64,000 nucleotides of DNA from positions 14,283,167 to 14,347,166 of the forward strand of contig NC_087074.1 in NCBI RefSeq assembly GCF_026151205.1, written 5' to 3'. Under the pieces are notes generated by a model that saw nothing but the letters and a program-made list of their open reading frames with translations, ran no database searches and was not told where the DNA came from. The position numbers were made by a program, and so were the translations under genes. The stretch is from Bolinopsis microptera (taxonomy: Eukaryota > Ctenophora > Tentaculata > Lobata > Bolinopsidae). Positions 3,865 to 46,350 of the stretch are shown one piece after another; the first letter of the stretch is position 1; every line of letters starts with the position of its first letter.

Positions 3865-6800
3865 ATGTCGGATGTTCAAGTACGATAGTGAACAACTTTT
3901 TAGACTTACTTTACTAGAATATAATATGAAGTTTGTTACTGTTGTCTGTTAGTAATATGAACACTTGTTAGGTATACTTCAACAATTGTAGACCTCATTG
4001 AAAGTAGGTTTTGACGCGCAACATAAGGTTTCATTTTCGGCTGCAAAGTGCGAACTATTAACCTGGTGTTTTGTTTCAGGAATACGAGCAGCTGAACAAC
4101 TACATTTTGAAAGAGGTGCTTGGTAACGGCTCCTATGGGATTGTGAAACACTGTACTGATCAGTCAACAAATGTGGACTACGCCATCAAGATCATCAGCA
4201 AGAAACGTATCAAAGCAAAAGCTGGATTTTCAGGTATCTGCCAATAGTGTCCTCTTTTATTAGTACCTAATTGTATAATTTTCCTCTGTTAACATCGAAC
4301 ATTGGACTGTAAACCAGCAAAGAGATTGTGTAGTATCATCATAGTACAGAGTTTAAATCTTCGCATCATGATATTGATTATATCCAACTGTACAGTGTAC
4401 ATTGAACTGAAGAATGGGGTAGTCCCCCAACTTTACATGTTACCCATGAGCCTAGAGGAGGGGTTTTTGAAAATTACACTAATGTATTTTTTACGCAACA
4501 GCTACGTGTAAACTGTAAAGTGGCTTAGTACGGGGTGGGGAGTGGGCTCTAAAGTGGCCAAAGTTATAGGCTTACGTAATATGAGAATAAACACATATTC
4601 CTTAGACTAACCCTCTATCCCCATCAGTTCTAACCCTCCAACCCCACCAGTTCTAACCCTCTAACCCCACCAGTTCTAACCCTCCTACCCCACCAATTCT
4701 AACCCTCTAACCCCACCAGTTCTAACCCTCCTACCCCACCAATTCTAACCCTCCTACCCCACCAATTCTAACCCTCCAACCCCACCAGTTCTAACCCTCT
4801 AACCCCACCAGTTCTAACCCTCCAACCCCACCAGTTCTAACCCTGCTACCCCACCAATTCTAACCCTCCAACCCCACCAATTCTAACCCTCCAACCCCAC
4901 CAGTTCTAACCCTCCAGCCCCACCAGTTCTAACCCTCCAACCCCACCAGTTCTAACCCTCCTACCCCACCAATTATAACCCTCCTACCCCACCAATTCTA
5001 ACCCTCCAACCCCACCAGTTCTAACCCTCCAACCCCACCAATTCTAACCCTCCAACCCCACCAGTTCTAACCCTCCAACCCCACCAGTTCTAACCCTCCA
5101 ACCCCACCAGTTCTAACCCTCCTACCCCACCAATTCTAACCCTCCTACCCCACCAATTCTAACCCTCCAACCCCACCAGTTCTAACCCTCTAACCCCACC
5201 AATTCTAACCCTCTAACCCCACCAATTCTAACCCTCTAACCCCACCAATTCTAACCCTCCAACCCCACCAGTTCTAACCCTCCAACCCCACCAGTTCTAA
5301 CCCTCCAACCCCACCAGTTCTAACCCTCCAACCCCACCAGTTCTAACCCTCCAACTCCACCAGGACGATCATTAAAAGGTCCCCCCAGAAGGCAGCCCCC
5401 AGGAAGGAAACCAAGCGCCAGCAGCAATCCTCTCGACAAGATCCACATGGAGATAGCCATCCTGAAGAAGTGCGAACACGATAACATCGTGTGTATGAAG
5501 GAAGTAATAGATGACACTCAGTCTCCGGAACAGAATATCTATCTAGTCTTCGAACTCATGTCCAACGGACAGGTAAGTTGGGAGCTTTCTATTTTCATTT
5601 TCTTATTATTAACTACTTAAAGTTCTGGCAGGTATTAGCGTTTTACAAAGGTAGAGTGAAATGTTTAATCTTTTTAGAATGCCACTAATGTTTGTTTTAC
5701 TTTGCGAGTTGTCTTTTGATCAGATTTTAACTATAACCTCCCAAAAGGTGATGGAGGAACCGAATATGGGATCAAAAGCTCAAGTTAACCCCCTGCCAGA
5801 GCAAACATGTAAACGATTCTTCAGGCATCTCCTCCTAGGACTCGAGTACTGTGCGTCCAATCTCTATTTGTTTAGCTAATTTTCTTTTCAAATTCATCAA
5901 AACCACCAAAGTTCTGTTTACTTGATATTTTTCTACTATTTGATCTTAATTCTTAATGCGACTAATGATTCATGTTTCAGTGCACTATCAAAAGATTATT
6001 CACCGAGACATCAAGCCCTCTAATTTACTGTTAGGAAGCAATGGGGAACTTAAAATAGCAGGTAATAATAAGAGTCATAAGACTGAGAGGAACAGCACAG
6101 TGTTATACTTATAAATGGCGAGAACAAAAGGGATAAGGGAAAATAAGGATGAAGTTTTGTGTTTAGTATACTACATTTTATGAAGCATACTTTGTTAACG
6201 ACAGCTAACCAACCCCAGATTTCGGAGTATCCGAGATATTTGAAGGAGACAGAGCTGTTGTAAAGAACTCAGCCGGATCCCCCGCATTCCTCCCCCCAGA
6301 AGCTGTGGACCCCGACATCACCAGTTTTGACGGCCAGTTACTGGATATCTGGGCCTGTGGGGTGACACTTTGGATATTCTGTTTCGGGAGGGTTCCGTTC
6401 AGGGGTGATAGTATCCTGAAGCTTCATGAGAATATTAGAGAAGCAAAGTGAGTAGCTTTATTTGTGTGAGTCTTTAGGTGCTTATGTTAGGACTTGCCCT
6501 TCGCTCTTTGTAACCTTTGTCAGCTTTTTATTTTATCTTATTTTGATTATGGTGAACATTGTTCATGTCTCATAGTATTGAGAAACATCTTATATTTACA
6601 ACGATCAACGACATTTATCTCCTTCGTACAAGTGTGCTATAATTGTACTCATCATTATCAGGTTAGTGTTTCCAGAGAGTGACATGCTAAACGATGATCT
6701 AAAAGACCTCTTCCAGAGACTTATGGCCAAGGTATACCTTTCTCTTCAATTTTGGAAAATCCAGGGTTTTGAGAAAGTGGACAAAATATCATTTCATTTC

Positions 6801-9389
6801 TATCTCGTACGAGACCCATTCACGGGTTCCACTGACCAATCGTCAAGTACCTCTTGAAATAGACTGCAAAACAAAAACTGGTGTTGATTTTTGCCTGCAA
6901 TTATTCCCAAATTTGAGTGACTCTTACTACTTTACTATAATAGTGCTACTATGGACAATACCCCTCTTTGAAGCTTCGTTACTTTATTGACAATATTTAA
7001 AAAAACTGAGTGATATAAACCATGTCACAGCATGTTGATATTTTAATAGATGTATAAATTCTAACAGATGTATAGACTCGCTCTCTTCAGAATGTAGATG
7101 ACCGCATCAGCATAGAGGAGGCAAAGTCCCACCCGTGGGTGACGGATAACGGACAGATAACGCTGAAAACCAGCGCTCAGAACTGTAACTTGGTGGAGGT
7201 TAGCGATGCAGAGATCGCCAACGCTGTCACCTGCATCAAGTGGGGAACCATGGTGAGTTACCAATACCGTTCACCAAGTTACCAAGTTACCTAGTTACCT
7301 AGTTACCAAGTTACCTAGTTACCAAGTTACCAAGTTACCAAGTTACCTAGTTACCAAGTTACATAGTTACCAAGTTAACTAGTTACCTAGTTACCTAGTT
7401 ACCAATTTACTTAGTTACCTAGTTACCTAGTTACCTAGTTACCTAGTTACCTAATTACCTAGTTACCAAGTTACTTAGTTACCTAGTTACCTAGTTACCT
7501 AGTTACCAAGTTACCTAGTTACCTAGTTACCTAGTTACCAAGTTACCTAGTTACCTAGTTACCTAGTTACTTAGTTACCTAGTTACCAGAGGCACATATT
7601 AGGTGCGGTAAAAAAATCGAAATTATGCGGTACCGCACCCGACTATAAAGGTTAAATGTGCGGTAAGGTGCGGTAAATTTTTACCAATTATGCGGCAAAT
7701 GTGCGGCGATTTTTTCGAAATTTGTGCGGGAATTGAGCGGTTTTCCTTTGCATTTTTTCAAGGACTTTGGAAATTCTAAACGTATAACCGCCGCTCTTAT
7801 CAAAAATAGGTCTGTTTATGTGTTACTGAAGGTGTAGTTCTTTACTAAGACCATGATTGAACCTAATATTGAGATTCAGTTATCTGAGAAAAGTGACTTG
7901 ATCTGGTAGAGATCAGGAAACAGTTATTTGAAGACGCCTCTTGATAGAGTCGATCAGATCCCATGCAGGTATCTTCTGTTTCTTGTGTGGTGAACTGGAT
8001 GATGGGTCACTGTCTGTAGCTGTTCGTTTCTTTAGGAAACGGTCCATGACGTTGTGATGTGATATAGAGTAAGCAGATGATGTGGTGAAGTTACGAATGA
8101 TAACTGATACACTATAATCGAAGTACGGTAATGACGAGGGTTCTATAACAGCCTGGGTCACGGTCCCGAAAGGGCCTGGGTCACGGTCCCGAAAGGGCCT
8201 GGGTAACGGTCCCGAAAGGGCCTGGGTCACGGTTCCGAAAAGGCCTGGGTCACGTGGTAACCGGGTCACGTGGCCTAGGCATGAGTTCCAAAAGGGCCTG
8301 GGTAACGGTCCCGAAAGGGCCTGGGTCAGGGTCCCGAAAGGGCCTGGGTCAGGGTCCCGAAAGGGCCTGGGTCACGTGGTAACTGGGTCACGTGGCCTAA
8401 GTATGAGTTCCAAAAGGGCCTGGGTCACGGTCCCGAAAGGGCCTGGGTCAGGGTCCCGAAAGGGCCTGGGTCAGGGTCCCGAAAGGGCCTGGGTCAGGGT
8501 CCCGAAAGGGCCTGAGTCACGGTCCCGAAAGGGCCTGAGTCACGGTCCTAAAAGACCCCGACTTTTAAAATATTTTGGTTTTTACACTCGAAAATCTTAA
8601 CGCGAAAATTTCAAAATTATGCGAAATTACGCGGAAAATTCTAGATTATGCGGAAATATGCAGAAAATTACAAAATGTGCAGAAATGTGCGGAAAACAAT
8701 AAATTATGCGGAAATGCGCGGAAAACGGTAAATTGTGCGATCCCGCACCCATCGCACCTAATATGTGCCTCTGCTAGTTACCTAGTTACCAATTTACTTA
8801 GTTACCTAGTTACCTAGTTACCTAGTTACCAAGTTACTTAGTTACCTAGTTACCTAGTTACCAAGTTACTTAGTTACCTAGTTACCAAGTTACTTAGTTA
8901 CCTAGTTACCTAGTTACCAAGTTACTTAGTTACCTAGTTACCTAGTTACCTAGTTACCTAGTTACCAAGTTACTTAGTTGGTCACCGTAGTTAGTATCCA
9001 GGCTGCTAGACAAGTTACCAGGCTTATAAACAAGTTATTATGGTGGGTAATCTGGAAATTCTTGTGCAACAAACTTGAGATAAACCACCTAATGAATCTT
9101 TCGTTTCAGATGAGAATTTACAACATCGCAAGGAACAGATCATTTAAACTCCGTTCTGACAGAAAATCCCGCTCCCTTCCAAAGTAAGCTGTGTTTCGCT
9201 TGTTACATACAGCCATAGAGATAACTAATTCAATCTCCCCGTTCTGTTTACCATTTTAGATTTTATTCGGATAATTCTACTAATGCAACCCCGGCCCCTA
9301 ATCACGACCTTCATTTTCTCAGAACACCCGCGGACAATGTCCAGAACTCCATGGGAGAGTTACATATAGAGGAACCCACAGTAACTTGA
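3865..9389 (+). CDS. Calcium/calmodulin-dependent protein kinase kinase-like Ser/Thr kinase
   Basis: Ten coding exons: 3865-3879, 4080-4233, 5364-5572, 5748-5850, 5981-6061, 6219-6447, 6662-6731, 7091-7252, 9110-9183 and 9260-9389 (1227 nt, 408 residues; all junctions in phase). Kinase motifs: Gly-loop GNGSYGIV (20-27), ATP lysine K42 in YAIK, an Arg/Pro-rich insert (about 57-78, with KGPPRRQPPGRK) typical of CaMKKs, HRDIKPSN with catalytic D170, DFG at 188-190, PPEAV in place of APE, and DIWACG. After the kinase domain a basic stretch (RIYNIARNRSFKLRSDRK) sits where CaMKKs have the autoinhibitory/calmodulin-binding region. CaMKKs phosphorylate the activation loop of CaMKI/IV and AMPK; that role here is by family. 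The N-terminus is very short. The five-residue first exon (MSDVQ) is inferred from its phase and its GTACGA donor, so the true start is the least certain part. The exon 4 acceptor (CCAAAAG) is weak. Confidence 0.92.
4605..5363 (+). repeat. 23-bp minisatellite in kinase intron 2, ending at the acceptor
   Basis: There are 32 head-to-tail units of exactly 23 bp (TTCTAACCCTCCAACCCCACCAG with minor variants) after a diverged first copy. The final AG of the last unit (5362-5363) is the splice acceptor of kinase exon 3. Each unit carries CTAAC, a pyrimidine-rich run and a terminal AG or AA. By eye 19 units end in AG and 13 in AA. Confidence 0.95.
7276..7586 (+). repeat. 8-bp array (TAGTTACC/AAGTTACC), left part
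   Basis: This near-continuous 8-bp array starts just after the exon 8 donor. The donor itself reads GTGAGTTACC and so already contains AGTTACC, one unit. The array continues at 8774 after a transposon insertion. Confidence 0.93.
7587..8773. mobile_element. hAT-like non-autonomous element inserted in the 8-bp array
   Basis: The ends are perfect 21-bp inverted repeats beginning CAGAGGCACATATTAGG (7587-7607 and 8753-8773). CTAGTTAC flanks both sides (7579-7586 and 8774-8781), consistent with the 8-bp target duplication of hAT elements, although the array period is also 8. Both subterminal regions are rich in TGCGG motifs, as in transposase-binding regions of hATs. A minus-strand stretch near 8047-7913 (MDRFLKKRTATDS, then a Lys-rich segment) resembles the N-terminus of some hAT transposases. 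Positions 8150-8545 hold a 23-bp repeat (core CCTGGGTCACGGTCCCGAAA). It has no intact transposase. Confidence 0.85.
8774..8979 (+). repeat. 8-bp array (TAGTTACC), right part
   Basis: Continuation of the array at 7276 on the far side of the hAT-like insertion, in the same phase. It ends about 130 bp before the exon 9 acceptor. Confidence 0.93.
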
Positions 9390-12300
9390 GGATGATCTTT
9401 CCTACTGTAATTGAAACTAGGGAGATGTCAGCCGTCTCACTGCTTGGAGATATCCATCAAGAGATGAAAACAAAGAATTTGTGTCAGACCGGGGTTATCT
9501 GAAGATCTGAGGTGTGGCTTCTTCGTGTCGGTTGAAAAATGAGGATACGACACTAAAATGACGTGGATTGACTAGCTCCGGACACATGTGCTGTGTTCCT
9601 GAGCTGAATTTTTATATCAGTTATGTTTCACTTTGTGTCATTTCTTTTTGCTTTGACAAGATAACTTTAGGACTGAGCGTGTTTAGCGTTTTGGCTTGAC
9701 TAGAAAAATTTTGTTGAGAGTTTGTTTTTGTTTTTATGTAAATATGGGGCAGATGATCATACTAGTACTACAAATACAAAGTTGAAGACAATTTTCGTGT
9801 ATAACGTTTCCAATCTAATTACAGTGCTGGCAAGCACGACCGTTAAAATGTATAATAGTACTTCATACAACATGAACATGTGCACAAAATATGAGAATAT
9901 TTACAAAGAAAGTCTTTCTTTGACTCCTCATTGAACTTTGACTGGGACCCTCGAACTTTCAGAGCCATAAACATCCCTTTCTCATACCTAATTAGGTTTT
10001 TCATCACAATTGATGATTGATTGTACACTAGGTTTCCCAAAAGCAACCCTACGAAATATCGACAGAGTGTAATTGATGTGATAAACTTGACATACGTTGC
10101 ATGCCACTTTTCGCGCGCGAAGCCTGATATTTGGGATACGTAACATGTATCAATGATAAACCTAAACGTTTAACTCGCTACAATTTTCAGGCCGTGAATG
10201 AATGGGAAAACTAAAAGGTAGCGAATGATTTTAGTCTCTGTATCATTTTGTGTTTGGGAACAGTAATCTAAATTCATAAAATTTCTTTTCAATTGAAAGA
10301 AAGAGATACTGGTAGTGGTCACGGTCCGCTTTCTTTTTTGGGCGCGTCGACAAAAAATCACAACTTGATAAATGATAATTAAATTTAAATTAGTAACAGC
10401 ATTGATGGTCAAAGAATATAATATCAGAATGCGCAGTTTATATCTCCACAGAAAGCACACTCCCCAAATTTCACGCATTGCAGAAACTTTTTTCAAACTT
10501 CATAAATCGAGATGAAATACAAAATATTTTGCAATGTATTCAGAATCAATAAATACCATTACCATTATAAAAATAACTTGGAATACTTTTGAAAGAGAAT
10601 GGCAAACTCAAAATGATCGCTACTGTCTTATTTTTTCCGTAAAAAGCACAATAGCGTGAGTAGCGTTTGTCAGGGTGTCTCGAAAGTGATCCCCGGTCAA
10701 TTTTGGTCAGGACAGGTTAACTTATTGCAGAATCAGGCAAGCTATAGAACAACTTCATCCGTATCAAATTGGATGTGCTTTCTGTGGAGATACAATCTCT
10801 TATAGCGGTAAAATATCTCAACAGCCTTGGTCCAGAAGAGCTGTAAGGTCTGGACTCCGGAGTAAAACTGTTAGTGTTGAGGAACTAAGCTAGGTCTGCG
10901 TCAGCTCCCGCCATCATGATAGGGCCCAGCATTCCTGGTGAATTTTTGCCATTATATTTATACATACTTAAACTTTCAAAATGAAAATATTGAACTAGCT
11001 TCTCTTTTCACGACCGTACGAGAAAAACTATAAAAATTGCGAATAAATGATAGAGAAATAAATGTAATGACAGTAGAAAATTTGCACCGTTAATTATATT
11101 TATAAATATACCTTCATCTTCGTTACTCGAGAACACTATCGCTGATTCCTCGTTTACTGCTTTGCTCCACACTAAAAAAGAAATATTGAAGAAATTTCGG
11201 CATTAAATGTTAAAATTCAAAACATGTGGGGCCAGATCAACAGTTAAGTTTAACCTATTTTGTTTTTGTACGACTAAAAATCTTAAATTTACTATACCTG
11301 TGAGAATAAGAATGGCAAAGAACAAAAATCTGACGAATAGGTTGAATCCGGAAATGGTGGACATTATTAACTCGGATTTGTCTCTAGATGTGATCGTGAA
11401 GAAATGTTATTAGAATTGAATGAAAGTTATATTTTTGGTATTTTTATGTTAACAAGCATTAACCTAATCGTTTAAATTTAATCATACTCATAGTATCAGA
11501 AATACGAACGTAAGAGTACGAAGCCAATACTAATACTATTACTAATAGTAATAGCCTTCAGCTTGCAGAAATTGGGCCGTTATTTGTAATTGTACCGACT
11601 GCATTCAGAATCAAAAGATCAATTGAACTTAGCCATTAGTTTAACTTTATATTTAAAAATAGTGCTGCGGTGTAAACGAAAAAGAATTCTGATAGCCAGC
11701 TTGGATATCGTAATAGTAATACCAATAGTAATTACATCTCAATCAGCAATCTGTAGATGTACTGCAATCACTGCACCATTAACTTGGCATTTTGAATATC
11801 CGAATTCCCTGAAATTATCATGAAAATGGGGCAGTCATAAAAAGTTTAAACGAGAAATCTTGTTCTGAAGAACAGCTTGAGATTCTGTATTTGTACTGCA
11901 ATCACCAGAACCAGCCATTTTAAATATTCAAATCCACAGACCTTAAAATCAGTCCAGGTCTCCTGATAATTAATACGCTTAAAATAGTCAAAGGGGTAAA
12001 TTACAACGATGACAATGGCTGCAGCACAATTAGAGGTCAAAAAGTGGCCCTAAATTTTAACGCTTTCAATAATGAATTGCTTCTCTTTCATTTTAGATTT
12101 CTTTATTTGCGTTAAGGGCATTGTGACAAAATTGTGATTACCATTTTTATTCAGACGCCTGCACCGCTGTTCGAGTGCACGAAATCGATTTCAAATTAGG
12201 TAACGCGGCACTTAATGATAATTATCTGTTTTAAATCAAAGCATTGTTTGTTCTGGCAAACAGCATGCACCATGACCATGCAGACTAGCAACCTGAATAC

Positions 12301-13290
12301 AAAATAACCAAGCACAACGAACAATAGCCGATAGGGAATAAATTTGAATAATATTTATCCCTCGTGTGATGCAGTTCACTTAGGCACTGACTGGTGCGAT
12401 TAGTTGACAACAGAGGTATAAACCATAAGAGGACTAAGTTTACAGAAGTTATATGCTGATAGAGCATGACATATGAATATGATCAATCATGCATGAAGTC
12501 TATGACTTTTTATAATTCCTGTGGATCAAAGGCTTGAACGTTAACTCAGGTTATTATTACCCCACGTCGCATGCTCTAAACCGGGTTACCACTACGTCTG
12601 TGTAAAGATTAGCCACAAATTCAGCAGCTCCACCCTAATTGTGGGAGTGAGTGACAAATGAGGAGACACGCTAGCGTCTATTTCTCAATCTAATTCTAAA
12701 TCTTATCGCGAATCTTTGGAAAATCAAGCGTCAAGGGACAAAATTAGGTCAATTGAAGCGGCCCTTCGAATTTAAGCTTCTATGCGTCTGGTTAAGCAAT
12801 GACGACATATTGTAAATGTTGCGAAATAATAATGATATTGAATTCCAATGGCCAGCATGACGAGGATGGTTACAATGTGATGGCTAATACTAAAATAGGA
12901 ACTTAACTGTTAACCATCATAATATTATATCACTATCAAATATTAAGGATTGATTGATTGGGAACTGGGTTTTACTACCCCAGTTAATGTTTACTAAAAT
13001 AGATATTGAACAGCAATTTAATAAGATAAAAATCGTACCAGCGTACTTTAAAATCTGTATGATTCCTGAAATTAAAAGTAGCTATGACCATTAAGAGTTA
13101 AATATATTGTTTATATTCCCCATCATGGACTAGTGGCTCAACAAAACTGCGTCGGAAATTAAAGCTCAGCTAAAGCCTGAAGACTATTCAGTCTTGTTTA
13201 GAAAATAACTACAGCTACCAATATGTCCCTCACAAACATGGTCCAAAACATATCAAAACAGCACACGAAACACACACTCAAAAAAAGTTG
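9390..13290. other. Intergenic; kinase 3' flank, no gene seen
   Basis: The open frames are short, low-complexity and match nothing I recognise. An AATAAA at 10548-10553 is a possible distal polyadenylation signal for the kinase gene. Positions 9821-9844 match 63638-63661 exactly in inverted orientation (24 bp), so a dispersed repeat fragment is present. Confidence 0.6.
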
Positions 13291-14169: not shown

Positions 14170-14244
14170 AACAAGCTAGCAGCGCAGTAGCGGTGCAATT
14201 ATCAAGAGATAAGCAGTGCGATAACGAGAGCTAACAAATTTAAA

Positions 14245-14375
14245 ACGGCAGTGAGAGTGTATTATCAAATAATGACAGTGAGAGTGTATTATCAAATAAT
14301 GACAGTGAGAGTGTATTATCAAATAATGGGTGAGAGTGTATTATCAAATAATGAGTGAGAGTGTATTATTTAAGT
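14245..14375. repeat. 27-bp tandem repeat upstream of the LINE ORF1
   Basis: About five copies of CAGTGAGAGTGTATTATCAA(ATAATGA), the last ones slightly shortened. They lie on the 5' side of the minus-strand ORF1 and could be 5' UTR repeats of the retrotransposon or an independent expansion. Confidence 0.8.
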
Positions 14376-14570
14376 GTATTCCTAGCGGAAAATTGTCGGG
14401 CAACCTGGTAATATTAAAACTAAAAGTAATAACAGTGAAGGTTGTCACGTTTAAGAACCGTTAAAATTGCAGTAACTCTACTTGAGTACTTGAATGGCGT
14501 GCAGTAATTGGATTCAAGCTACAAGTACAATCAGTTCAGCGAATAGAATGATTTTTGACAGTAGATTTCC

Positions 14571-15475: not shown

Positions 15476-15734
15476 TAACCCGCGATAAAATTCATAATCA
15501 GATTGAGAAATAGACGTAAAGTTAAACGTGTTTCCTCATTTTTCACTCACTCCCAAATTAAGTGACAAATGCTCCAGTCGTGATTAATCCAGGGTAACGT
15601 CAACGATACACTGCAACAACGTAACGGTGGTGGACCTCTTGATGTCATCATCTTCTTGAGATAAGAATGATTGGAGCTCGAGCTACAATGAAGAAATGGC
15701 AAAGTTCAGATTCTGTACCTGCGACACCGCCTCT

Positions 15735-16850: not shown

Positions 16851-17004
16851 ATAGTCTCCCTGTGCATGTCATGTGTCAAGGGCAACAAAATAGTTATACT
16901 TGGTTGTGACATTCCATAGTCTGCTCAGCACGATCCAAAAAAACTGTTTCAGTCACGTGATAAACGTAAATTCCACTGTTCGGGTTCTAGGGTTAACTTT
17001 AAGG

Positions 17005-29500: not shown

Positions 29501-32500
29501 TTTAGGACCTGCGGTGCTTTAGTCGCCCATGAACACGAGCGCTTTACAGACTTATCAATCTTCTCGATCCTGTTTTAAAGCTATCCTTTTGCGCTGTTAC
29601 AATCTTTACGTTTTTAAATTATCATATTTCTGTCTCTGGCTACAATTCCTTAATTTTCTGAGAAATTCAAACTTTTAGTCTATACGAAAAATTTATAGTT
29701 GAACTTAACAAAAATTTAAAGTAGAATAATTTTAAAGGTAACATTCTCGAGGCTTCCCTGTCAGGTTTTTGCACCACATAAGAATGTGAAGACCTGTAGT
29801 GCGTCTCCCACCCTCCCAAATTCCAAACATCATATCCCCAGACTCATCACCCTTTGCCAGAATCTGCTAATGCAGCTGCCAGCTTTCAGTACTCATTAAA
29901 CTATTAACACGTACATGTGATGTCGTTTAAAAACAATCAACCAACTGCCAAGAAGTCACCTAAAAATCATCACCATACCTCATAGAAAACCAAGCTAATT
30001 CTAAAGTTTATCCATTCTTCATTCCTCATGCATCACCTCTTATAGTTATATACAAACCACACTAAGTCCCTGAATCCTGACTGGAGACTATTCACCTTAT
30101 CTCCTCCTCAATAAGTCCCTGTACCCCTAAGTCCTAACATCTTGTCTCCTCCTCAATAAGTCCCTGAACCCCTAAGTCCTAACATCTTGTCTCCTCCTCA
30201 ATAAGTCCCTGAACCCCTAAGTCCTAACATCTTGTCTCCTCCTCAATAAGTCCCTGAACCACTAAGTCCTAACATCTTGTCTCCTCCTCAATAAGTCCCT
30301 GAACCCCTAAGTCCTAACATCTTGTCTCCTCCTCAATAAGTCCCTGAACCCCTAAGTCCTAACATCTTGTCTCCTCCTCAATAAGTCCCTGAACCACTAA
30401 GTCCTAACATCTTGTCTCCTCCTCAATAAGTCCCTGAACCACTAAGTCCTAACATCTTGTCTCCTCCTCAATAAGTCCCTGAACCACTAAGTCCTAACAT
30501 CTTGTCTCCTCCTCAATAAGTCCCTGAACCACTAAGTCCTAACATCTTGTCTCCTCCTCAATAAGTCCCTGAACCCCTAACATTTTATCTCCTCCTCAAT
30601 AAGTCCCTGAACCCCTAAGTCCTAACATCTTGTCTCCTCCTCAATAAGTCCCTGAACCCCTAAGTCCTAACATCTTGTCTCCTCCTCAATAAGTCCCTGA
30701 ACCACTAAGTCCTAACATCTTGTCTCCTCCTCAATAAGTCCCTGAACCACTAAGTCCTAACATCTTGTCTCCTCCTCAATAAGTCCCTGGACCCCTAAGT
30801 CCTAACATCTTGTCTCCTCCTCAGATGCCCAGTTCGTGTCAGTGATCCCAATTGACCGTCATCTGTACGTGTTCTATAAGGAACTCACATTTGACTACCC
30901 CAGTCCCATTCTGACTTCCAGAGTAGCTAGAGTCTGTCTCACAGATCCCGGCGGTAACAAGTAAGTTTATTTGCTAATTAATATTTTAATAATTTTATAT
31001 GCTAATAAAATAATTCGTATTTTAAAACATTCCGTATCATTTATATGTTTTGAAAGAATCCCCCCTCCGAGTCTAGTTATGTGTCTGTCTATTTTTGTGT
31101 GTAGGAGTATTGAGTAAGTATTAACAATCCTGGCGATAAATAATATATCAAATAGTTAGTTGGTTACGTGCTGTCTGTCTCTTTGTGCAACATTCTAACC
31201 TTACAAAGTATTCTAACGTTTCATTAACCAGCATACCATTCTGTCATAACTTGATTTTTTGTCATACCAGATTTGCCTCGTTAAGATTTTAGAGTTTTCT
31301 GTGGTATTCGTCTCTGGAAGTCCTAAAGTTCTAAACTTGTTCCATTTTTCTGGGTCATCATCTGAGCGTCATTTTAGACAATTTAATGTTGACCACGTAA
31401 ATATCACTACGTAAATATTTGAAGCGGAGAGAAATTACTCCATCGCCAAGTCTGCATACCTGTCTGGCATCTCCGGACACCAAATTAATGTAGAATTCAG
31501 GAATTATAAACCCCGTTTCAAACTGTTTTCAAGTCTGCCGGTTGAAATATTGTCGGCAGACAGTAATTCCGAAGTTCCTGATTGTTAAAGTTGCAGTTCT
31601 TGGGTGGTCAGGTTGCAGCCTGCTGCTCTCCAGCAAGCTGACATGTAACACGTGACAGTTACAGTAAGTTACAGTATCACACTGTTTCACATGATCCACA
31701 CGACTACAAACAAGCATCACAGCCCTGATCTAACTTTCCTGCTTGCTATTTAATTTAGTTTAATTACAGCACGAGTATATCTTGTGTTCCTCTCCTGCCA
31801 CCACGGGGCAGACTCTTCAGACTTACTTTAGTGGTATCACGTACAATAATAAGGTCCCTCCCTGTAGGACCCTCCCTAGGGTGGAAGTACGGTGGTGGAA
31901 GTAGTGCTCGTCTTGTAGTATGTGGTCACTAACGTCTAACACAATAGGGGGGCTACAAGACCTAATTTGTGGTAACGCCCCAGTTTCAGACACGATATTA
32001 AATCCTTAATTGAGACATTTGAGAAGTGGCCTGTCAATTATTGAGCACCTTGAGACACATACCAATGAGACACCCACCAAGCTTTCCATCCTGTCAGATT
32101 CACTGCCCTTTCAGTCTACATTCCACTCACAATGCCATATTCTTGACACAATGATGTCTCAGCTGAATACTCTCTCCTCCCCACTGCAGCACATCGGGTG
32201 AAGTTTATCAAGTATGTAAACCAGTTTCCTTGCACTTGAAGAAGCCTTACTTGGTATTTATGGTAGCAGTGTTTGTGGGCACAATGTGGAAATTCAGGAG
32301 AGATGTTCCAAACCAGACGTGTTTAACACAGTTAACTACATTCTTAACAATTATTAGACTGTCTCACTTCACCTCGCCTTCACCCCAGTTTACCGTGTTC
32401 TGTACAACGTGCTACATATTCTATTATGCCTACTCCCTGACGGTACAAATATCTCAAGTCAAGCATAATTAATAATTCCTCCAACGAAAATAAACATTAA

Positions 32501-35500: not shown

Positions 35501-38500
35501 AGCGATCCTTGCATCCTGATTGTTACCCCGATCCAAGGTCCGCTCTATTCGCCAGGTAGCATCAGATAATTGCGTCACCCGAAATACATTGGTGAAGAAG
35601 AAGCATTACTCATAGTGCTGACATCTGAGCATTGTTCTGCCACCACGTATAAAGGGTCCGGCGTGAGGTGCAGATATTATAGAAACGATCTGTCCGTCCA
35701 CAAACCGACGGTTATTTTAGACATTTCAGTCTTGACTGGAAGGTAACTCCTGGTGTTGCCTCGCCACAGATGTGTCCGATTCGTGCCGGGCTAATTATTC
35801 ACCCGGGAACTAGCTCCGAATCGATTAATGGACTAGGCATCCTCCCGTCCTAAATGTAGAAATGTTTCCTGATCTACGGCGTGCCAATGAGTATTTTTAC
35901 CGTGCCATTGCCTGAATGTCAGAGAAATGGGCAGGCCCGGGAATTCTTTACTGATTCAATCAGGGTTTAATTGAAAGTGCGATAAAATTTAGGTTAGCTT
36001 CATGGGACGAGACTAAATTTGCCGAATCTGACAGCAGATGTCACCAAATAATTATAATAATGCGGATAGATTCTCATTTCTCCAACTCTGGACATGCATG
36101 AATAGCCAACCAGAACGCCACAATATTGTATTATTAATCTCGGGGGTCTAATATCCTATTTTTCATCGGTAACTTTGACTTAATCAGCTCAGGTTGATCA
36201 ACCCTGCATAACCAGAATATTTTGTAAGTAAGTGGTTTTGCGTTTCGAAATCACGAATTATATTTGTTGTCGCGGTCAGAGGGCTGTGCCCGTATTTGAA
36301 AAAGTATAGCCATTAGCCATGGTTTCACTGGTTCCAAATCCCATGAAAAGACCCTGATTTTAATTTCACTGGGATGGAGTGATGCAGACAAACTTAGTTA
36401 CTGCATTCAACTCCAATAAATTGTGAAATATTAATGCCATTAATCATGTAATACTAGATCAGTAAAATTCTCGACACCGAAACCTTGGTCCTTCGGTGAT
36501 AAAATGATTTAAAAATTAAATTTTGGACTAATATATGTCTGGAATCCGGCCCTATTCATAAAAAAGTACAAGCATGATTATTAGACAACCGTCCATTTAT
36601 CACTTAAGAAAGCGATGATCAGGCCGATAACGATCTGATAATAAACTTAACCCACTGTTCCACAAACTAAAGACGCCTACCCGATATTTACCCTCGTCAG
36701 TAATATATCTTTTCTCCTAACCACCCCTTTATTTCAGATCGGATGATGTACGCAATCTTCTCCAACATTCCCAACGGGCCGTGCTCTGCGTCAGCCGTGT
36801 GCGCTTACAACGTGGCGGACGTCCACAGCAACTTTACCTCGGACAAGTTCGTCCGTCTGGATCATGGGACCACCACCCAGCACACAGTCTCCTCTGTAAA
36901 GTGAGTCAATCAACAGTTCTTCAGAGAAATTAGCCCAATTATAGCCAGCAAGGATTTTTGGCATTCCGTTAAAGTGGCGATGTCGCGGGCGTCCTCAGCA
37001 TTATTTTTCTCACAATTATTAAGTGTGATAAATTTAAGAAAACTCTTTTTAAACTTTTCCAAATGGAGCACTGCAGTCTACTGTTTAATTTATTCACACG
37101 TTCAGTTTAAATGAGTGTAATAAGGCTTCAGCTAGTTTCCTGTTTACTTCCACCTTTACTCACGGCTGCAGGTTCAAATGTCAGATAATTCAAATTGCAA
37201 ACGCACTTCACACTTTCACCTCTAAATGTTGGCTCCACCTGACCGTCCCGTACTTGATAGGCTTAAGTAGCCCCACTTACCTTGATTAATTTAATATCCT
37301 CCTTCCACGATACTCAACTAGATAAGATCAATGAGGCCTTGATAGTAACTTGACCCACTCAATACCTCGCATTAATCCCTTTTCTAATCCGGGGGAACGT
37401 GTTAGGAGGATGGATAACTGCCAGGGAGAGTAAGATAAAAACACCTGATAGACCTGGCCTTTAAATCGTCCCTTGATTTTAAATTAGGCCGTGTGATTAG
37501 TCCTGTAAATTAGTCCTGTAAATTAGTCCTGTAAATTTTATATCTCTGGCTCGAAACATAATTTTATGCAGACTTTTTTTGTTCATTGCAAGATCAGCGA
37601 CAAAATTGAATTTACTGCGACACGAATATAACATTATAGAACATTATAACAAGTCACTTCAAATTAGGCGAGTCGAAAACTAATCTTTGAAATCTCCTTT
37701 TTAGGTAAAATCCGCTTTATGAAATTGTGGAATTTTTTGTGGCCGTCAAAAAATAAACGTTTAAACAGCTGGAGACTGGACATAGAGAGCAAATATTTTC
37801 TAGCACATTCTGAAGAGTAAACATTGTTTTTTTTGGCAATCTATCCATTCAACCTACTAATTCACACCTAGCCTATCTAGTTCGAAGGCTTCATACTTAA
37901 TTAAGATAAGTCATTACATGATATGCCTGTCTGTTTTTGACTCCGAGACAATTATTTATATTTATAAGTATGATAAGTATAATTAACCGAGTTTAGTTTC
38001 CTTGCACGATTAACAATCCATATGCGATGGCACCAGATGACACAAACAATAGTATATTAAGTATCGATATTTTCTACTAGATATAAAGTAGACACTTGTC
38101 TAGAACCCCTCATATTCAGTGAGCCTGGTTGATGCTTCGGGTAGCTCAGTGGCTAGAACCCTCTCGTTTCAAGTCTCTAGAGGGAGGTTGTGGGTTCGAA
38201 ACTCAGTACTTTTTTGTCAGGGTTAAGCCTCGCTGACGGCTCTCGTTATTTGCCGGTTGGCGGTTGACCCGGCCCTGTAACAATACGGCTGCAGGGCAAC
38301 TGAAGCAAAATTAATCTATAGATATAAAATCATCAGTACCCCTCACTGACCCCATAACTAATTCCTTGTATTTTCAGTTCAGAATCATGCGAACAGCCCC
38401 GGTCTCTGTACGACGCCCACAAGTACAACTTCCTCAGAGATCCAGTGAAACATACCCATGATGGGCCCCTGAACACAGCCCAGTGTAGGAGATACACTGC

Positions 38501-41500
38501 TATTGCTGCTGATAGGATCAACGGTATTGACGTTCTCTTCATCGCTACTGGTGAGTGATCCCTGTGTTTAGCTGTGATGGGGAGATGGCGTGCCGTGAGA
38601 GATCGCGTGCCGCTGGTTTATTTGTTTTCATTCCTCATGTTGTGTAAACTTAAGGGGAGATACACCAAAACCGTTTTTGCTCCGAACATCGATTTTATTT
38701 TATATTATTTTTAAATAGACAAAAAAATAAGATTGTACACCTTCAAACATTTTTAAAAATATTCCCTCATCGAGAAAAAAAATATTTTTCTTTTTCGAAA
38801 ATTTTTAAAATTTGGAGAAGTCTGTCACTGTAATACCGATAGTTCGGCCATTTAAAAAGTTTTTTGGCTGATTGTTTTACTGAACATTACTTACACTCCG
38901 TACTAGAAGCCATTGAAAGGATTATATAATTGAACAATAAATGACCAAGTTACAGACCGAACAAGGTGAAAAAAGAAAAATTGGGATTTTTGCCTACCAC
39001 CAAAGTTGTACATTTCACCACCCGCCCAGGTCATCAGATATCGCTTCAAAAATTCTTGTGAGTGTATTTGATGATCATGGCAAGCTTTTTGGAACCGGAT
39101 TTCTCTCAATTTTGAGTTTTAAGCTATGCAATGTGGCCTCAAACGACTTAGTAAAATTCATCGTAAAAAAGGGCAAAAAAGGCAGATTTAAGGCTTAAAA
39201 TGCCTATAACTCAAAAATTATCAGGTTTTTTGAAATAATTTTTACAGGATCGTAATCAGCTTGGTAAGACGAATCTTTTAGTACCAAATAGGTGCTTTTA
39301 GAAGACAAATTGTCTTAAATAATTTTCTAGCTCGAACACAAGGGTCCCCCCTTGTATAAATTTTGTACAAATTGTACACATTTTTTTACAAATTTTGTGG
39401 CTTTGAATATTATAAATGTCGTACTAAAAGATTCGTCTTACCAAGCTGATTACGATCCTGTAAAAATTATTTCAAAAAAACTGACACTTTTTGAGTTATA
39501 GGCATTTTAAGCCTTAAATCTGCCTTTTTTGCCCTTTTTTACGATGAATTTTACTAAGTCGTTTGAGGCCACATTGCATAGCTTAAAACTCAAAATTGAG
39601 AGAAATCCGGTTCCGAAAAGCTTGCCATGATCATCAACTACACTCACAAGAATTTTTGAAGCGATATCTGATGACCTGGGCGGGTGGTGAAATGTACAAC
39701 TTTGGTGGTAGGCAAAAATCCCAATTTTTCTTTTTTCACCTTGTTCGGTCTGTAACTTGGTCATTTATTGTTCAATTATATAATCCTTTCAATGGCTTCT
39801 AGTACGGAGTGTAAGTAATGTTCAGTAAAACAATCAGCCAAAAAACTTTTTAAATGGCCGAACTATCGGTATTACAGTGACAGACTTCTCCAAATTTTAA
39901 AAATTTTCGAAAAAGAAAAATATTTTTTTTCTCGATGAGGGAATATTTTTAAAAATGTTTGAAGGTGTACAATCTTATTTTTTTGTCTATTTAAAAATAA
40001 TATAAAATAAAATCGATGTTCGGAGCAAAAACGGTTTTGGTGTATCTCCCCTTAATGGGCTCGCTAAACTTGCAAGAAAACTTGAATATTTCTACTGTTA
40101 AGTTTAAAAACAACGTACGTTGTAAAACCTGGCTCACTCAAACTTTAGGACATTTTTTGTTACTAAAAATTAGAAGTAGACATTTAAACTTTCAAATTCT
40201 CGCGAATAGGTGGCTAAAATATGTGCAGTCTACAAATCCTGCCCTTTACACGTCAATGAGGGCCCCTGTCCTCCATTCCACTCACATTCTGACGCTTTTA
40301 TTAAATCGAGGATTATTTGCAAACGTTATATTTTCTGCTTGAGTAATTCTGTGAAATGTAGCCTTGTTGTGGTTACGGGACGTGATCCGGCACGCTTTCC
40401 AGACTGTGAATATCCACAGTTCACTGTTCAGTGAAACTGTAGGACTTGTGCTGCGTTGTTTTCTATTAAATCATTCATTTTCCTTTAACAACGTTGGTAA
40501 CACCATGCAAAAGTCGGCGAATAGTCTACACTCCACAGCATATAGAAGCAAGGACCATATTTTTTAACACTTTTTTAGAAAGTCTATTTCTTGCAACTTT
40601 CTAAAATTGCTAAATTCTGGCACGTCTCAAGACTTCCTTAAAACTCGTTAATTGTAAGAATAACCTGGTGTTACAGAGCCCTTGAAAATAATTCTGTTTT
40701 CAGATGACATGACGTTTATCAAGATGGCAGTGAACGGCGGAGTTGCATACCAAGTCGACTCCTTCAGGGTCCGTAAGGAGACGAACCCCATCACCAAGAT
40801 TGTGGTCGCGCCAAATGCTGTAAGTGCCTTATTATAAGTATCAAATCATATATCGCCAGGAATTTTAATCTTATTGTGTAAGTTTGGTCATTTTGTGGTC
40901 GGGTCTCAGTTTAAGTCAGCTGTTCGCATGTTTGAGAAATGCTTGGTTAATTTCCAGGCTCATTTTCTAGAGAATGCGAAGACCCAAGCGCTGTCTCGAG
41001 TTACACTTTAACAATCAAATCACATTTTAAACAGTCAAATTTGATTTTCTAACAATTTACCCATCAAAAACTTCAAAACAAAGGGATAATGAAATGAACA
41101 GTCACCGAAGATAAACGCTTTTTTCCTGAATTTTAAAATTGCATATTGATAAGCCTCCACGGTACGTTGATTCTGATACGCCCATATAGCGCTTCTTTCT
41201 TAATTGCAGTTTTCAGGCATCTTGAAAACATCTTCCCCCAGAGTTCCCCAAAACATGCTCCAAACATCTGGAATTTGAACAATTTATTAGACTGACATAT
41301 TCACGATTTAGAGGGATAACATACAAGTATCGCACCCGTTTATCGAATTAGGGAGGTTTCACATTTTAAAAGGGTCCCGATAACAAAGTTAACAACGTTA
41401 GATGATTTTGATACTGTAATAAAGTGGTCCGGTCCCAGATAAAGCTCGGTCCACTAACAGCCTCCTTTATGATGACAGTCTCAATTTCGACCTCGCCTCC

Positions 41501-44500
41501 AGTATATGTGGGATGTGCACCTCACGGATAGAAATCGTGCTAATTTGGGTAATTTCCCTCGAATTGGTTTTAGTGGTGTCATAGACTATTTTGATGGGAG
41601 ACCGAACTGTACGCGATTAGATTGTGGGGATGATTGTTAGTACTACTCGTAGAGTAAGTTAAGGAGATGATTTAGTATTTAGAGCGTAGTCATGGTGACA
41701 GTTACAAATACTAACATCAATACTATAAGTTACAGTGTACTGATAATTGGGTTTTGATTCCGTTAAATAACCTCGTTACTGCAAATCAAAACACAACTAA
41801 ACCTTGTTATCTCCGTAAACCAGCTCGAGTCGTTCTTCCGTGAATCTCATTTTCTACCCCTCGTCTGCAAAAAATTACTTTTCTGTATCTAATTAAAATT
41901 GGGGCAATATTCCCCTCGATACGGTCACCGTCAATGAAGGAAAAAAGGCTTTTACTAACCGAACATAAGTGATGGTACTAAGTATATAACACTGATGATT
42001 TTAATAAGTATTCAATACGACGGTCGCCGTGATCATTGTTACTGAAAACCTCATCTTCCTTAATATAATTACAAAATAGAATTATCATAAATATCAAATT
42101 AAGCTATAAAAAGCCTGGGTCTCTGAGTATAATAATACTATTATATATACTAGTACGTGGTTGTTTTATGTAACTAATGAGCATAAATAATCATTTTAAA
42201 TCGGTGCAGCAGCCAGCAGCATCATGTCGATTATAGTATGGTGTTATTTTTGGCTGTCATCAAAAAGTTGCGTTAAATTCCTGAAGGATGCCGGTCCGGC
42301 AGCTCGTGACTCTAGTATTGTGACTTCAAGTGACTTGTGAAAAATGTTGTCCTCGAATGTCCGCACTATTCAGACAAGAGACTTTAGATTAAGGATTCAC
42401 TTTAGGGGGTAGTTCAAACAAGAAATTAACCCGTTTCCACTTATTAGGATTAGTGGCAAGTGCAAGATGAGTTTTAAACAACTCTCCGGGATATAGTCGG
42501 TATTTTCTGGCTTGTATCCAAGTCTTTATAGTGCAGCAGTAGTGCAGCAGGCTTGTTAGGAAACCTTACAAATTCACTTATCGGTGTTGTCATCGAAAGT
42601 GAAGAGTGCAAACACAGTGCTACCAACAACGAATCTTGTTTGAGGTGTTCGATTTTAAATCCGAAAAAAAAGGAATATGGGCCAAATTGTGGTAGAAAAA
42701 TAAAAAGAAGTAGATTAACCTAGACTAACTTTTTATTGCGGATATCAGCGAGGTCCTAATTTTAGGTATTATAAGCAGCTATCAGTATGTGTAAGGTAAT
42801 GGAATGTAATGTTTAAAATAGTTATGGTTACCAGAATATTAGTACCAGCACACCGTGGTTTACTATAAGTTGATTTCCCTAACGAGTTTATAAAGATCCG
42901 TAACCGTAGTACTCCATTATTATCACCTCAACTCCGGCTCTGCAAGTTTAAAACCCCAAACTCCATCTACCAACTTAACAACATTATGTAGATTTAACTG
43001 CTTTCTGTCTCCTACTTAATTTGTAAATCCCAAATGTCTTCTAAAACTTTCACATAAGCTCACCATACGAGAATGAAACATAAATTCTCCAATCCGAGTG
43101 ATGTATGTAACGAGATGACTGATTGAAGGGTATGCAGACGGTGGCTGTGTAATACGGCTGTGTAATAGTAATACGGCTATAATACGGTATAATACGGCTG
43201 TGTTACACTGGTAGACAGTATCGGTTGAATAATCAGGAAGTTATTTGAACTTTTAGACGCACAGTTTGTCACTTTGGTCAGCAAACCAATTCATATGGCT
43301 GATCCTTCGTCACACCATACTTTGGATTAGGGATTGAATCAGATCAGATTTGGTGGATATTCCCCTGATAAATTGCCTCAGGCTCATCTACATGATTCGC
43401 TCATACAATGTTTATATTCGTGTAAATAATTCCTATTTAATAATACTTCACATTAAAGTATCGTTAGATAATCCTCCAAGTTGGGAGACACAAATATTTT
43501 ACACTATCTTTGAAACTATGATCTAAAGTGGGTAATTCCATTTAATCAGTAGCTACCGTTACGGTAATCAGGGCTATTGATACTTCACACTTATTTCCGG
43601 GCAGCCCTAACTTCTAGTAAAATCGGTGACGTAACCTTAGTCCCAGACGCTCTGTCACCAGGTCCGGACACCCTTACTTTTCCCTGACCACCTTTTATAG
43701 TAGGGCAGTATAATACACTATACAAGGTAACAGCTACCTTGTATAGCTGTAAGGTAGCTGTAAATGTGAGAACATCTCCCCCATAAACCCGCTAAACGCT
43801 TTGCGTGTACACAACATATTAATTGAATAAAGTATATGTTGCATGCCGATTGATTTAGCAGGGTACGAGCGAGGGGATCTGGTTAGCAACAGCCCCCTGA
43901 TTTATTATACCTCGGAGAAGGAGCTTAGTGTTTAGTGACAGATTTAAAAAGTTGTTTAAAAGAGATGAGATCTGTATGAGAGTGGAGAGATCTGGTGTGA
44001 CATGGCATTATCAGCAGTGCCCTCCGTCTCACCATTATTGGAGTGCAACCTGGGGAATGTGGGGAGGAATGTGGGAATGTGTGCAGCCACTTGTAAAATC
44101 ATTGTTCTCTGTCTCGCTATTAGCTTGTTCGTGAGACTTAGTCAGGTTATTAGAATTTATTCAGAACTTTTAAAGTGTCGATGACATGATTTCAGATCAT
44201 CAGGGTTATGATAATTGCGCGAAAACCTTACATGTGCATCACTTGGAATATTTGGCTTAATCTTAGCTAGATGACGGATCTTCAAAACCTTGTCAGATAA
44301 AGCTTCGTATTTTGAGAAGTGAGGGGTGTGTGACACGCATCTCCATCCTAAAATAGAGGTTTAGATCTAGATTTGTACTCTTTCCTTATTCCTATGCCCA
44401 GGAGGATCTAGATGTGTACTCTTTCCTGTTTCTTAGTCCTATGCTCAGGAACTTGGTAAAGACAAAAAGGAACACTTCCATGTCTGTGTCGGCCTCTTTA

Positions 44501-46350
44501 GTTGTTGATTAAATTAAGTGCTCCTCGTTCATACAGGACTTTCACTAAAGATCTAATCATCATTCACCAAATCTTCAGGTCCATCTATATCGGACTCAAT
44601 TTAGTCCGTTTTTTAATCACGATCGAACACTCGTTAACTGTGGAATGAGGCCCATGACTTGCAATAACAGTCGAGCTTACAATCCGACTTATGTCTGATC
44701 CCTTTTAAGGATTAAGATGGTAGACGTACAGGGTGAAGGATGAAATTTCCTGAAAACTAAAGTTCAAGATAGCTTAGTTTGCGTTTAGAGCAGGATTGGG
44801 TTTCAAATACCGTGCTATACTGAGATAGACTAATGGTGATTGGACCTACAATTTTCTACAGCGAATTTTTGAATTTAAAGAATTTCTTTGAACTCAACTC
44901 TTTGACATTTGTACGCCAAATTCTGCGAATCATCAATCGTCAAAGTTATTGACCCGGCAGCAATTACTGAGAATATGTTATTGCGGTTGACTACTCGCTC
45001 TTTTTAAAAGTTTCCAGGATTTAAAGCATGTGTCCTCGCCAATTTGATTTGTTCAAAGTTTTAAAAGGGAGCAATTTTCTAAAAATAGCCATCCTCTCAT
45101 CGATTTAAGATACGGCGAGTTTCTTTCATTATCTCCTGTCACACACACTGCGACAAACGGCTCTTTATCAATTCTCATGGTCCGCCCTTCTTAAGTAGAT
45201 AAAACTACCGGTACACTTCTTAAATTGAGTTGACATTGATAGACCACGGTTAAAACCTTCGACCAGTCCTGAGGTAATCTTATTAACTGACTTCAAATTC
45301 AAGGGAATTTAAAATTTAGTACTGCACCTCAGCGAGGCAGTTGGACACATTTTTACTCTCATGCATTCAAACCTTAAACATCGTACCAGGGACTGCCATT
45401 GAACAGAATCAATAACCTTTGTTATATTAAGCGAGAAATCATTCAAGTCATCTTGGAAATCCGTGATTCTACGGACTACAATCAATTAGTACCGCTATTG
45501 GTATGAGATATCTAAAAGTAAAACTGGCATAAATACGATACCACTAACTCCCAAATCAATTGTGTTCACTTTCCATGGAAAGTGAATTGGAATGTCAATG
45601 ACCACAAAATAATTGAGCTTTTATTAAGATTGAAGACGGAGGTTCAAGATTATATAATGCATTATCATTAATCAACCCACTAGACGAACGGGAAAGCCTG
45701 TAAACTAACCGTTACTATTCTCAGAAAACCTGTAACCTAACCGTTACTATTCTCAGAAAACCTGTAACCTAACCGTTACTATTTTCAGAAAACCTGTAAA
45801 CTAACCGTTACTATTTTCAGAAAACCTGTAATACGTACTATTTTCAGAAAACCTGTAAACTAACCGTTACTATTCTCAGAAAACCAGTAAACTAACCGTT
45901 ACTATTTTCAGAAAACCTGTAAACTAACCGTTACTATTTTCAGAAAACCTGTAAACTAACCTTTACTATTTCCAGAAAACCTGTAAACTAACCGTTACTA
46001 TTCTCAGAAAACCTGTAAACTAACCGTTACTATTCTCAGAAAACCTGTAAACTAACCGTTACTATTTTCAGAACTACGTGCTAGCTAGCGGACCAGACTA
46101 CCTGCTCCGTATCCCCATCTCGCAGTGCAAGCGGTTCAACGACTGTAACTCGTGCGTGGCATCACGTGACCCATACTGTGGCTGGTGTCCGACCTACAAT
46201 TCGTGTGTAGCCACCGTGTCCTGCCCCAAACCCGTCACCAACTACTTGGAGGAGTTCGAGACAGCCAACATGTGCTACCACTACCAGAAGCTGAACAATA
46301 ACAATACTCGGAGGGTTAAGAAGATTAAGAGGAGGAAGAGGAGGAAATGA
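20560..46350 (+). CDS. Short secreted semaphorin (Sema plus PSI domains, basic tail)
   Basis: Nine coding exons: 20560-20841, 28254-28413, 29179-29292, 30825-30960, 34719-34870, 36738-36900, 38378-38550, 40704-40819 and 46072-46350. The 1575 nt are in phase at every GT-AG junction and give 524 residues. Signal peptide at about 1-19 (MLCLFLTLLVELFNGGESA). The Sema domain spans about 20-445, with family hallmarks CVTCGTHGGRPRC, SRVARVCLTDPGG, HFRTFTKATISC and GPCSASAVCAYNV. A PSI domain follows at about 450-500 (CNSCVASRDPYCGWC). There is no Ig domain and no transmembrane segment; the last 13 residues are almost entirely Arg/Lys. Semaphorins are extracellular ligands for plexins, acting in guidance and adhesion. 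The basic tail recalls class 3 semaphorins and may bind heparan sulfate or matrix (inference). Intron 1 is 7.4 kb. AATAAA follows at 46423. Confidence 0.93.
24487..24522. repeat. Perfect 36-bp palindrome
   Basis: CATGTGTAATAATGTTTA is followed without spacer by its exact reverse complement. It lies in semaphorin intron 1. Confidence 0.9.
26185..26215. repeat. 15-bp-arm hairpin
   Basis: AACATACCATTGATA, one base, then the exact reverse complement; in semaphorin intron 1. Confidence 0.85.
30087..30824 (+). repeat. 45-bp minisatellite in semaphorin intron 3, ending at the acceptor
   Basis: Sixteen units (fifteen of 45 bp and one of 38 bp) with core CCTAACATCTTGTCTCCTCC then TCAATAAG and a 15-base linker. 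The last unit becomes TCTCCTCCTCAG, the acceptor of exon 4, so the array is flush with the exon. Each unit holds CTAAC plus a long pyrimidine tract. Internal units read TCAATAAG where the functional one reads TCAG. Confidence 0.95.
30961..34718 (+). other. Semaphorin intron 4
   Basis: No nested gene recognised. It contains the long G-run at 33284-33318. The acceptor region (GTGCTAACTCTACAAATTTTCAG less its first bases) contains CTAAC. Open frames up to 99 codons here look like chance. Confidence 0.55.
33284..33318 (+). repeat. Poly-G tract (26 G, T, 8 G)
   Basis: A 35-base tract with one interruption in semaphorin intron 4, on the sense strand of the gene. It could form G-quadruplex in DNA and in pre-mRNA. 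The exact length may be affected by sequencing error. Confidence 0.9.
34871..36737 (+). other. Semaphorin intron 5
   Basis: Unique-looking AT-rich sequence with no recognised gene or repeat. The acceptor region reads CTCCTAACC...TTTATTTCAG, again with CTAAC. Confidence 0.5.
38137..38310 (+). mobile_element. tRNA-derived SINE-like element
   Basis: A tRNA-like head has A-box TAGCTCAGTGG (38142-38152) and B-box GGTTCGAAACT (38193-38203) spaced 40 bp apart, matching RNA polymerase III internal promoters. The acceptor and T stems pair poorly, so it is not a functional tRNA gene. About 110 bp of non-tRNA body follows. It lies in semaphorin intron 6, in the sense orientation. The 3' end and target duplication are uncertain. 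Confidence 0.65.
38650..40055. mobile_element. Foldback element with 634-bp inverted arms and TTAA ends
   Basis: Arms at 38651-39284 and 39421-40054 are inverted copies, aligned without indels at every point checked (paired coordinates sum to 78705) and nearly identical, around a 136-bp spacer. Both ends abut TTAA (38650-38653 and 40052-40055), the target used by piggyBac-type elements; the inner termini read GGGGAGATACACC. Each arm has the same 85-codon frame, differing at one residue (VFDDHG versus VVDDHG) and unlike any known protein to me. It lies in semaphorin intron 7. Confidence 0.92.
40820..46071 (+). other. Semaphorin intron 8
   Basis: A 5.25-kb intron with no nested gene recognised. 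It contains a short TAATACGGCTG microrepeat (43145-43205), a 12-bp-arm hairpin (CTATACAAGGTA, about 43718-43747), and the splice-site array at its 3' end. Confidence 0.55.
45697..46071 (+). repeat. 32-bp minisatellite in semaphorin intron 8, ending at the acceptor
   Basis: Eleven units (ten of 32 bp and one of 27 bp) follow a diverged first copy. Each has ACTAACCGTTACTATTTTCAG or near, then AAAACCTGTAA. The last AG (46070-46071) is the acceptor of the final semaphorin exon. Nearly every unit has CTAAC, a pyrimidine tract, CAG and a downstream GTAA, that is, both acceptor-like and donor-like elements. Confidence 0.95.

Follow-up and report, generated by a model that had tools for sequence, protein, structure and literature searches.

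Three tandem arrays in the 64,000-nucleotide stretch of Bolinopsis microptera DNA analysed here (the window) end at the 3' splice sites of coding exons, one of them in a kinase gene and two in a semaphorin gene, and this raises the question of how minisatellites come to lie at the very ends of introns. The initial annotation had regarded these arrays as independent outgrowths of functional 3' splice sites, produced by a genome-wide process or maintained through selection for redundant branch points.

Gene models for the window were constructed by joining exons through open frames, which gave eight exons of a CaMKK-like kinase and eight exons of a semaphorin, the latter modelled without its 5' part. 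The kinase aligned with human CaMKK2 over residues 4-300 (E = 1.3e-83), spanning the array junction, whilst the semaphorin matched several semaphorins (the best being Semaphorin 4D, E = 3.4e-24) across both of its array junctions. The exact base of the kinase acceptor rests on frame and AG, as the residues directly after that junction form a poorly conserved loop. Right edges of the three arrays lie 0, -1 and +2 nt from the respective acceptors, so that the observation of three minisatellites ending at acceptors was confirmed, with protein homology supporting the joins. TRF located all three arrays at the places first given for them, and the 32-bp array was found to have 12.1 copies, not 11.

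Table. Arrays of the window and the exons next to them.
Feature	Position in window	Strand	Remarks
Minisatellite 1	4607..5363	+	23 bp x 32.9 (TRF), consensus CTAACCCTCCAACCCCACCAGTT; right edge is the acceptor of the kinase exon 5364-5572
CaMKK-like kinase exon 3' of the 23-bp array	5364..5572	+	Open join; protein aligned to human CaMKK2
Minisatellite 2	30096..30823	+	45 bp x 16.3 (TRF); copies read CTCCTCAATAAG, the genuine acceptor alone CTCCTCAG
Semaphorin exon 3' of the 45-bp array	30825..30960	+	Open join; protein alignment
Minisatellite 3	45692..46073	+	32 bp x 12.1 (TRF); CAG in 12/12 copies; 2-nt overlap with the exon
Final modelled semaphorin exon, 3' of the 32-bp array	46072..46350	+	Open join; protein alignment
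8-bp array, ACCTAGTT-like	7273..7587	+	Starts 20 nt past the end of kinase exon 7091-7252; close to the donor, not flush

A strong array was defined as one with a TRF score of at least 150, at least three copies and a period of at least 6. Given the window's 12 strong arrays and 16 modelled acceptors, 0.015 right edges would be expected within 2 nt of an acceptor by chance (P ~6e-7, or 3e-5 were the window to hold 60 acceptors), under a null which takes no account of exons themselves halting arrays and for three arrays which had been picked out beforehand by the initial annotation. None of the window donors had a flush array, the flush cases in the window being acceptors only. The B. microptera assembly was described as built with wtdbg followed by polishing (PMC10232365), and array copy numbers may accordingly be off; the distinctness of the units argues that the arrays themselves are real.

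Several other features were seen in the window. An element at 7584-8776, with 24-nt inverted ends (CAGAGGCACATATTAGGTGCG...), lies within the 8-bp ACCTAGTT array of the kinase gene and itself holds a 23-bp tandem array; it resembles an insertion of the hAT type. A semaphorin intron contains a near-perfect foldback (38650-40055) with two 640-nt arms, 99% complementary, around a 126-nt spacer. The array at 2119-2400 (63 bp x 4.5) has a unit of a whole number of codons and may belong, as a repeat, to the coding sequence of a minus-strand gene. There is a short, chromosome-internal run of TTAGGG-like repeats at 48480-48560, and further arrays lie at 14-17.5 kb. A tRNA scan of the window found none.

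The three units proved unrelated in sequence, as had been proposed. A genome search, which skips common words, listed no place outside their own arrays for the 45-bp and 32-bp units, and the 23-bp unit gave matches of only 69-73% at 23 further places. A single mobile unit seeded into several introns was rejected on these grounds. The four fetched stretches with weak matches to the 23-bp unit all carry arrays, with differing periods; in one of them (L051), chosen by similarity and kept outside the counts below, the array halts 11 nt 5' of a likely acceptor identified by eye.

CTAAC is present in all three consensuses and the AG is kept in two of them, both as initially described. CAG was found in 20 of the 33 copies of the 23-bp array, with CAA in the other 13, and every copy of the 32-bp array retains CAG. 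In the 45-bp array CTCAA stands in 16/16 copies, none of which has the AG, and CTCAG occurs solely at the genuine site. When sites were scored with a matrix derived from the sample genes, the best rival copy reached 6.7 against 9.1 for the genuine site in the kinase array, 0.1 against 7.2 in the 45-bp semaphorin array and 9.1 against 8.8 in the 32-bp array. The last is thus the only one of the window arrays which offers equal competitor sites.

Genes were then sampled without regard to repeats. Sample 1 comprised genome-wide matches to the myosin and kinesin domains (35 stretches, 190,300 bases) with 157 acceptors and 161 donors modelled, and sample 2 comprised SNF2 and UCH genes (15 stretches, 74,000 bases, 81 sites). 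The matches entering gene models were 55/73 for myosin, 106/109 for kinesin and 46/85 for SNF2 and UCH together; PF00005 matches, being mostly one-exon, and PF01403 loci were left out. The models are computed, some of their splice sites score poorly, and exons beyond the searched domains lie outside them.

Among the 400 splice sites modelled in these 50 stretches (264 kb), 11 carry an array of at least three copies, a proportion of 2.75% (95% interval 1.4-4.9%), and the affected sites were six acceptors and five donors. Strong arrays touched 10 of the 318 sites in sample 1 (five acceptors, five donors) and, by the fixed rule, 0/81 in sample 2. This last count became 1/82 after an acceptor in L043 was added by hand; its array had escaped the rule, which passes over exons that open a domain. 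The L043 acceptor has a weak score (1.9) and was added only after its array had been seen; on our reading of the sequence, no other AG would lie between the in-frame stop upstream and the point where the conserved domain starts. All ten hits in sample 1 were in kinesin genes (10/209 sites, against 0/109 for myosin; P = 0.018), suggesting that the array process is uneven among genes.

Donors (5/206) and acceptors (6/194) were hit alike (P = 0.77), and an acceptor-only process was therefore rejected, together with the earlier idea that the arrays are specific to 3' splice sites. Units carrying an intact junction were present at acceptors (49 bp x 7, and 26 bp x 112 in L016) and at donors (33 bp x 52 in L016, and 35 bp x 25 in L027). 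At the L027 donor, the exon end followed by GTAAGT recurs every 35 bp in 25 copies, with these six bases invariant. Exon bases (3-59 nt) lie inside the array in nine of the 11 cases, so that the description of the arrays as exactly flush, which is accurate to within 2 nt in the window, does not extend to the sample. Elsewhere in L027, two adjoining 35-bp arrays occupy one kinesin intron (3096-4437), the unit of one being nearly the reverse complement of the other's. An array in L009 (1837-2059, 72 bp x 3.1) has a unit with a likely acceptor, CTTCTTTCAG, and the bases following it; this array was excluded from the count because its exon lies outside the searched domains.

Given that strong arrays fill 25,135 of the 264,300 sampled bases (9.5%), some are bound to touch junctions. 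Random-placement nulls, which recognise modelled exons only, were run on this sample. When whole arrays were placed at random with up to 60 nt of exon overlap, 6.1 hits were expected against the 11 observed (P = 0.028). Expectations fell to 3.8 with up to 30 nt of overlap and to 1.0 with none, and 11 hits were reached in 0/1000 simulations in either case; single units dropped at random gave 3.6 (0/2000). For sample 1 at three thresholds, observed and expected hits were 10 and 4.6 (4/300 simulations), 10 and 6.0 (19/300), and 17 and 10.3 (8/300). The exon-side edges of arrays showed no clear concentration at the boundary (11 at it, 6 just inside the intron; P = 0.17). As the null with 60 nt of overlap best fits the arrays seen, which hold up to 59 exon nt, we state perhaps a two-fold excess of arrays at splice sites, modest in strength and fragile.

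Such an excess bears on whether splice junctions actively promote tandem duplication as hot spots, for example through R-loops or co-transcriptional breakage, where arrays would be seeded far above the intron average. We regard this as unlikely. The single-unit placement and the placement with up to 30 nt of overlap would favour it, but the excess shrinks once 60 nt of overlap is allowed, the edge density is unremarkable and sample 2 yielded nothing by the fixed rule. Since the edge test gave P = 0.17 and the excess is modest, junctions are not claimed here as hot spots.

A second alternative is that the copies are selected as redundant branch points or acceptors, or have a regulatory role in helping or tuning the splicing of the exon. 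The content of the window units points in this direction, and in 10 of the 14 arrays studied some copies score no more than 0.5 bit away from the genuine one. Repeats are also reported to affect splicing elsewhere: in intron 5 of canine LHX3, which has six 7-bp repeats, the loss of a single repeat is described as impairing splicing (PMC3223203), and a C. elegans minisatellite is described as occurring more often than expected close to multiple alternative splicing decisions (PMC4039745). Against redundancy stands, firstly, the equal share of donors. Secondly, CTAAC is scarcely enriched at acceptors: 10 of the 147 well-scored acceptors have it 8-42 nt on their 5' side, and 8 of the 147 stretches further upstream contain it (exon count 7, reverse-complement count 5). 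Of the six units of the sample acceptor arrays, only one includes CTAAC. CTAAC was therefore rejected both as a general branch motif and as a branch point common to the arrays. TTAAC was more frequent near acceptors (22, against 5 in the control), but its reverse complement also occurred there 17 times; the figures for CTAAT were 14 and 7. A looser branch consensus is conceivable on these counts. CTAAC does precede several acceptors of the window's kinase and semaphorin genes, and this may be the source of the original branch-point idea.

Thirdly, the splice dinucleotide shows no more conservation than the other unit positions. Across the 12 arrays with a consensus dinucleotide, mismatches were found at 17/658 dinucleotide positions and at 274/9,354 other unit positions (P = 0.38 and 0.54). 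With the kinase array removed the count is 4/592 by subtraction, in which the dinucleotide looks better kept; weak extra conservation may thus exist, and the column-based test does not back it. The 45-bp semaphorin array, as noted, lacks the AG throughout, which also argues against selection for redundant sites. Finally, use of an interior copy would mostly break the protein. Splicing three units away led to a stop, in the extra stretch or for acceptors in the first 60 exon bases, in 13/13 arrays tested, and splicing one unit away did so in 11/13 (L043 is outside these 13). These stops thus argue for the outermost copy, and from coding continuity we infer that the exon-most copy is the one in use. 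Taken with the points above, a selected role for the copies appears very improbable.

Recursive splicing, with the copies as steps and each unit an acceptor with a donor close behind, is scarcely credible: donor-like sites do lie near the copied AG in three sample arrays (median scores 6.0 at 0 nt in L024, 7.9 at 24 nt in L013 and 6.4 at 12 nt in L027, where the sample donor median is 7.2), but those of the window score poorly (0.4 in the kinase array, 2.8 in the final semaphorin array), and none of the decoy acceptors in the 45-bp array comes as close as 3 bits to the genuine site.

One pair of paralogues bears on the origin of the arrays. The paralogues L043 and L044 separated recently: arrays aside, their long aligned pieces are about 92-99% alike. 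An 89-bp piece over the modelled acceptor and exon start is present once in L044 and as six identical copies in L043, the flanks of the copies being alike and no base being shared at the joint. Junction copy number therefore varies between these paralogues (6 and 1), at an acceptor which is weakly scored. The simplest reading of this two-member comparison suggests a recent tandem duplication of a unique junction in L043; contraction to one copy in L044 would be the alternative and is less favoured, because the six copies in L043 are identical. L043 and L044 further differ by an intronic 22-bp x 122 array, a difference which, on comparison of the two sequences, shows arrays apparently coming or going fast here. 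Three other paralogue pairs (L014/L015, L032/L033 and L041/L042) are 95-100% alike in long aligned pieces, with insertion differences of ~0.9, 3.5 and 5.2 kb.

As donors are hit too, exon bases lie inside nine of 11 arrays, CTAAC is hardly enriched and the dinucleotides are no better conserved than other unit positions, the arrays do not constitute a device for acceptors or branch points. Those of the window are probably splice-junction minisatellites of the kind named mirages in amphioxus, the outcome of frequent duplication in a minisatellite-rich genome, tolerance at exon ends and subsequent expansion. First, a short segment touching or crossing an exon-intron junction would be duplicated in tandem, as the L043/L044 pair supports. 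The copies would then multiply and become partly homogenised through slippage or unequal exchange, as variants common to units within arrays suggest. Lastly, the 3'-most acceptor or the 5'-most donor would keep the exon intact, and the remaining copies would turn into intron. An exon end could tolerate duplication since the exon-most copy would remain usable in its old place, and arrays would halt near exon ends because deeper intrusion would harm the protein. The choice of the outermost copy could come from exon definition, with the shortest exon winning. The suggestion of a genome-wide process is borne out in the sample, since unrelated genes carry independent arrays at their splice junctions.

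A bolder version, which we offer tentatively and think unlikely, is that the genome holds thousands of self-copied splice sites, that duplications are born preferentially at junctions, and that the spliceosome reliably takes the exon-most of up to 112 copies at donors and acceptors alike. If true, the genome would amount to a natural experiment in which splice sites compete for use, and it would supply raw material from which exons and introns could newly arise. Rows of equal splice sites, dozens long, raise the question of how the cell picks the outermost: a first-come-first-served rule predicts use of the first donor and the first acceptor, whereas the coding evidence points to the last acceptor.

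The initial annotation knew of no named system of this kind, yet mirages have already been named in amphioxus (PMC3087553), where they are described in Adh3, the globins BflGb6 and BflGb9, troponin C and PGBD5 (PMC3087553; PMC3902484). Like the arrays here, amphioxus mirages are described at 5' boundaries as well as 3' ones, and AG or GT is kept in many of their copies (PMC3087553). Unit lengths overlap with ours, being 10-72 bp for Adh3 and about 150-160 bp for the globins; copy number is described as variable there, and regular splicing is reported as undisturbed (PMC3087553; PMC3902484). A unit which includes the exon-intron boundary, as in a mirage, was found in the nine sample arrays with exon bases, and both boundary types occur among the 11 affected sites. 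With 2 exon bases at most, the three window arrays abut the junction, unlike the amphioxus mirages that span it; they are a limiting form, mirages in the wider sense of abutting a boundary. The cephalochordate lineage of the name is taken here as history and not as mechanism. Our arrays also differ in coming from another phylum, in reaching 112 copies and in being many within a small gene sample. In keeping with a lobate ctenophore, one glutamate receptor of the genome (L058) matched 'ML032222a iGluR', ML being the prefix of Mnemiopsis gene names, at 407 bits, and the best vertebrate receptor at 243; among the 60 listed matches of a second receptor (L055) there was no chain of this kind. A search of titles and abstract openings in the open-access literature returned no report of mirages in ctenophores.

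Two human cases are also comparable. The minisatellite of the interferon-induced 6-16 gene (IFI6) reportedly contains multiple splice donors (Turri et al. 1995, cited in PMC3618361); it concerns one gene and donors, whereas the arrays here concern several genes and both site types. Internal tandem repeats in human segmental-duplication genes are described as expanding between recent paralogues and altering exon and intron lengths; they resemble the L043/L044 pair and, as described, are not centred on splice junctions (PMC2812944). Set beside the scattered amphioxus genes in which known examples were found, the ctenophore genome, with about 1 in 36 sampled splice sites affected, would render the process countable, and an oddity known from amphioxus is met in a new and apparently rich place.
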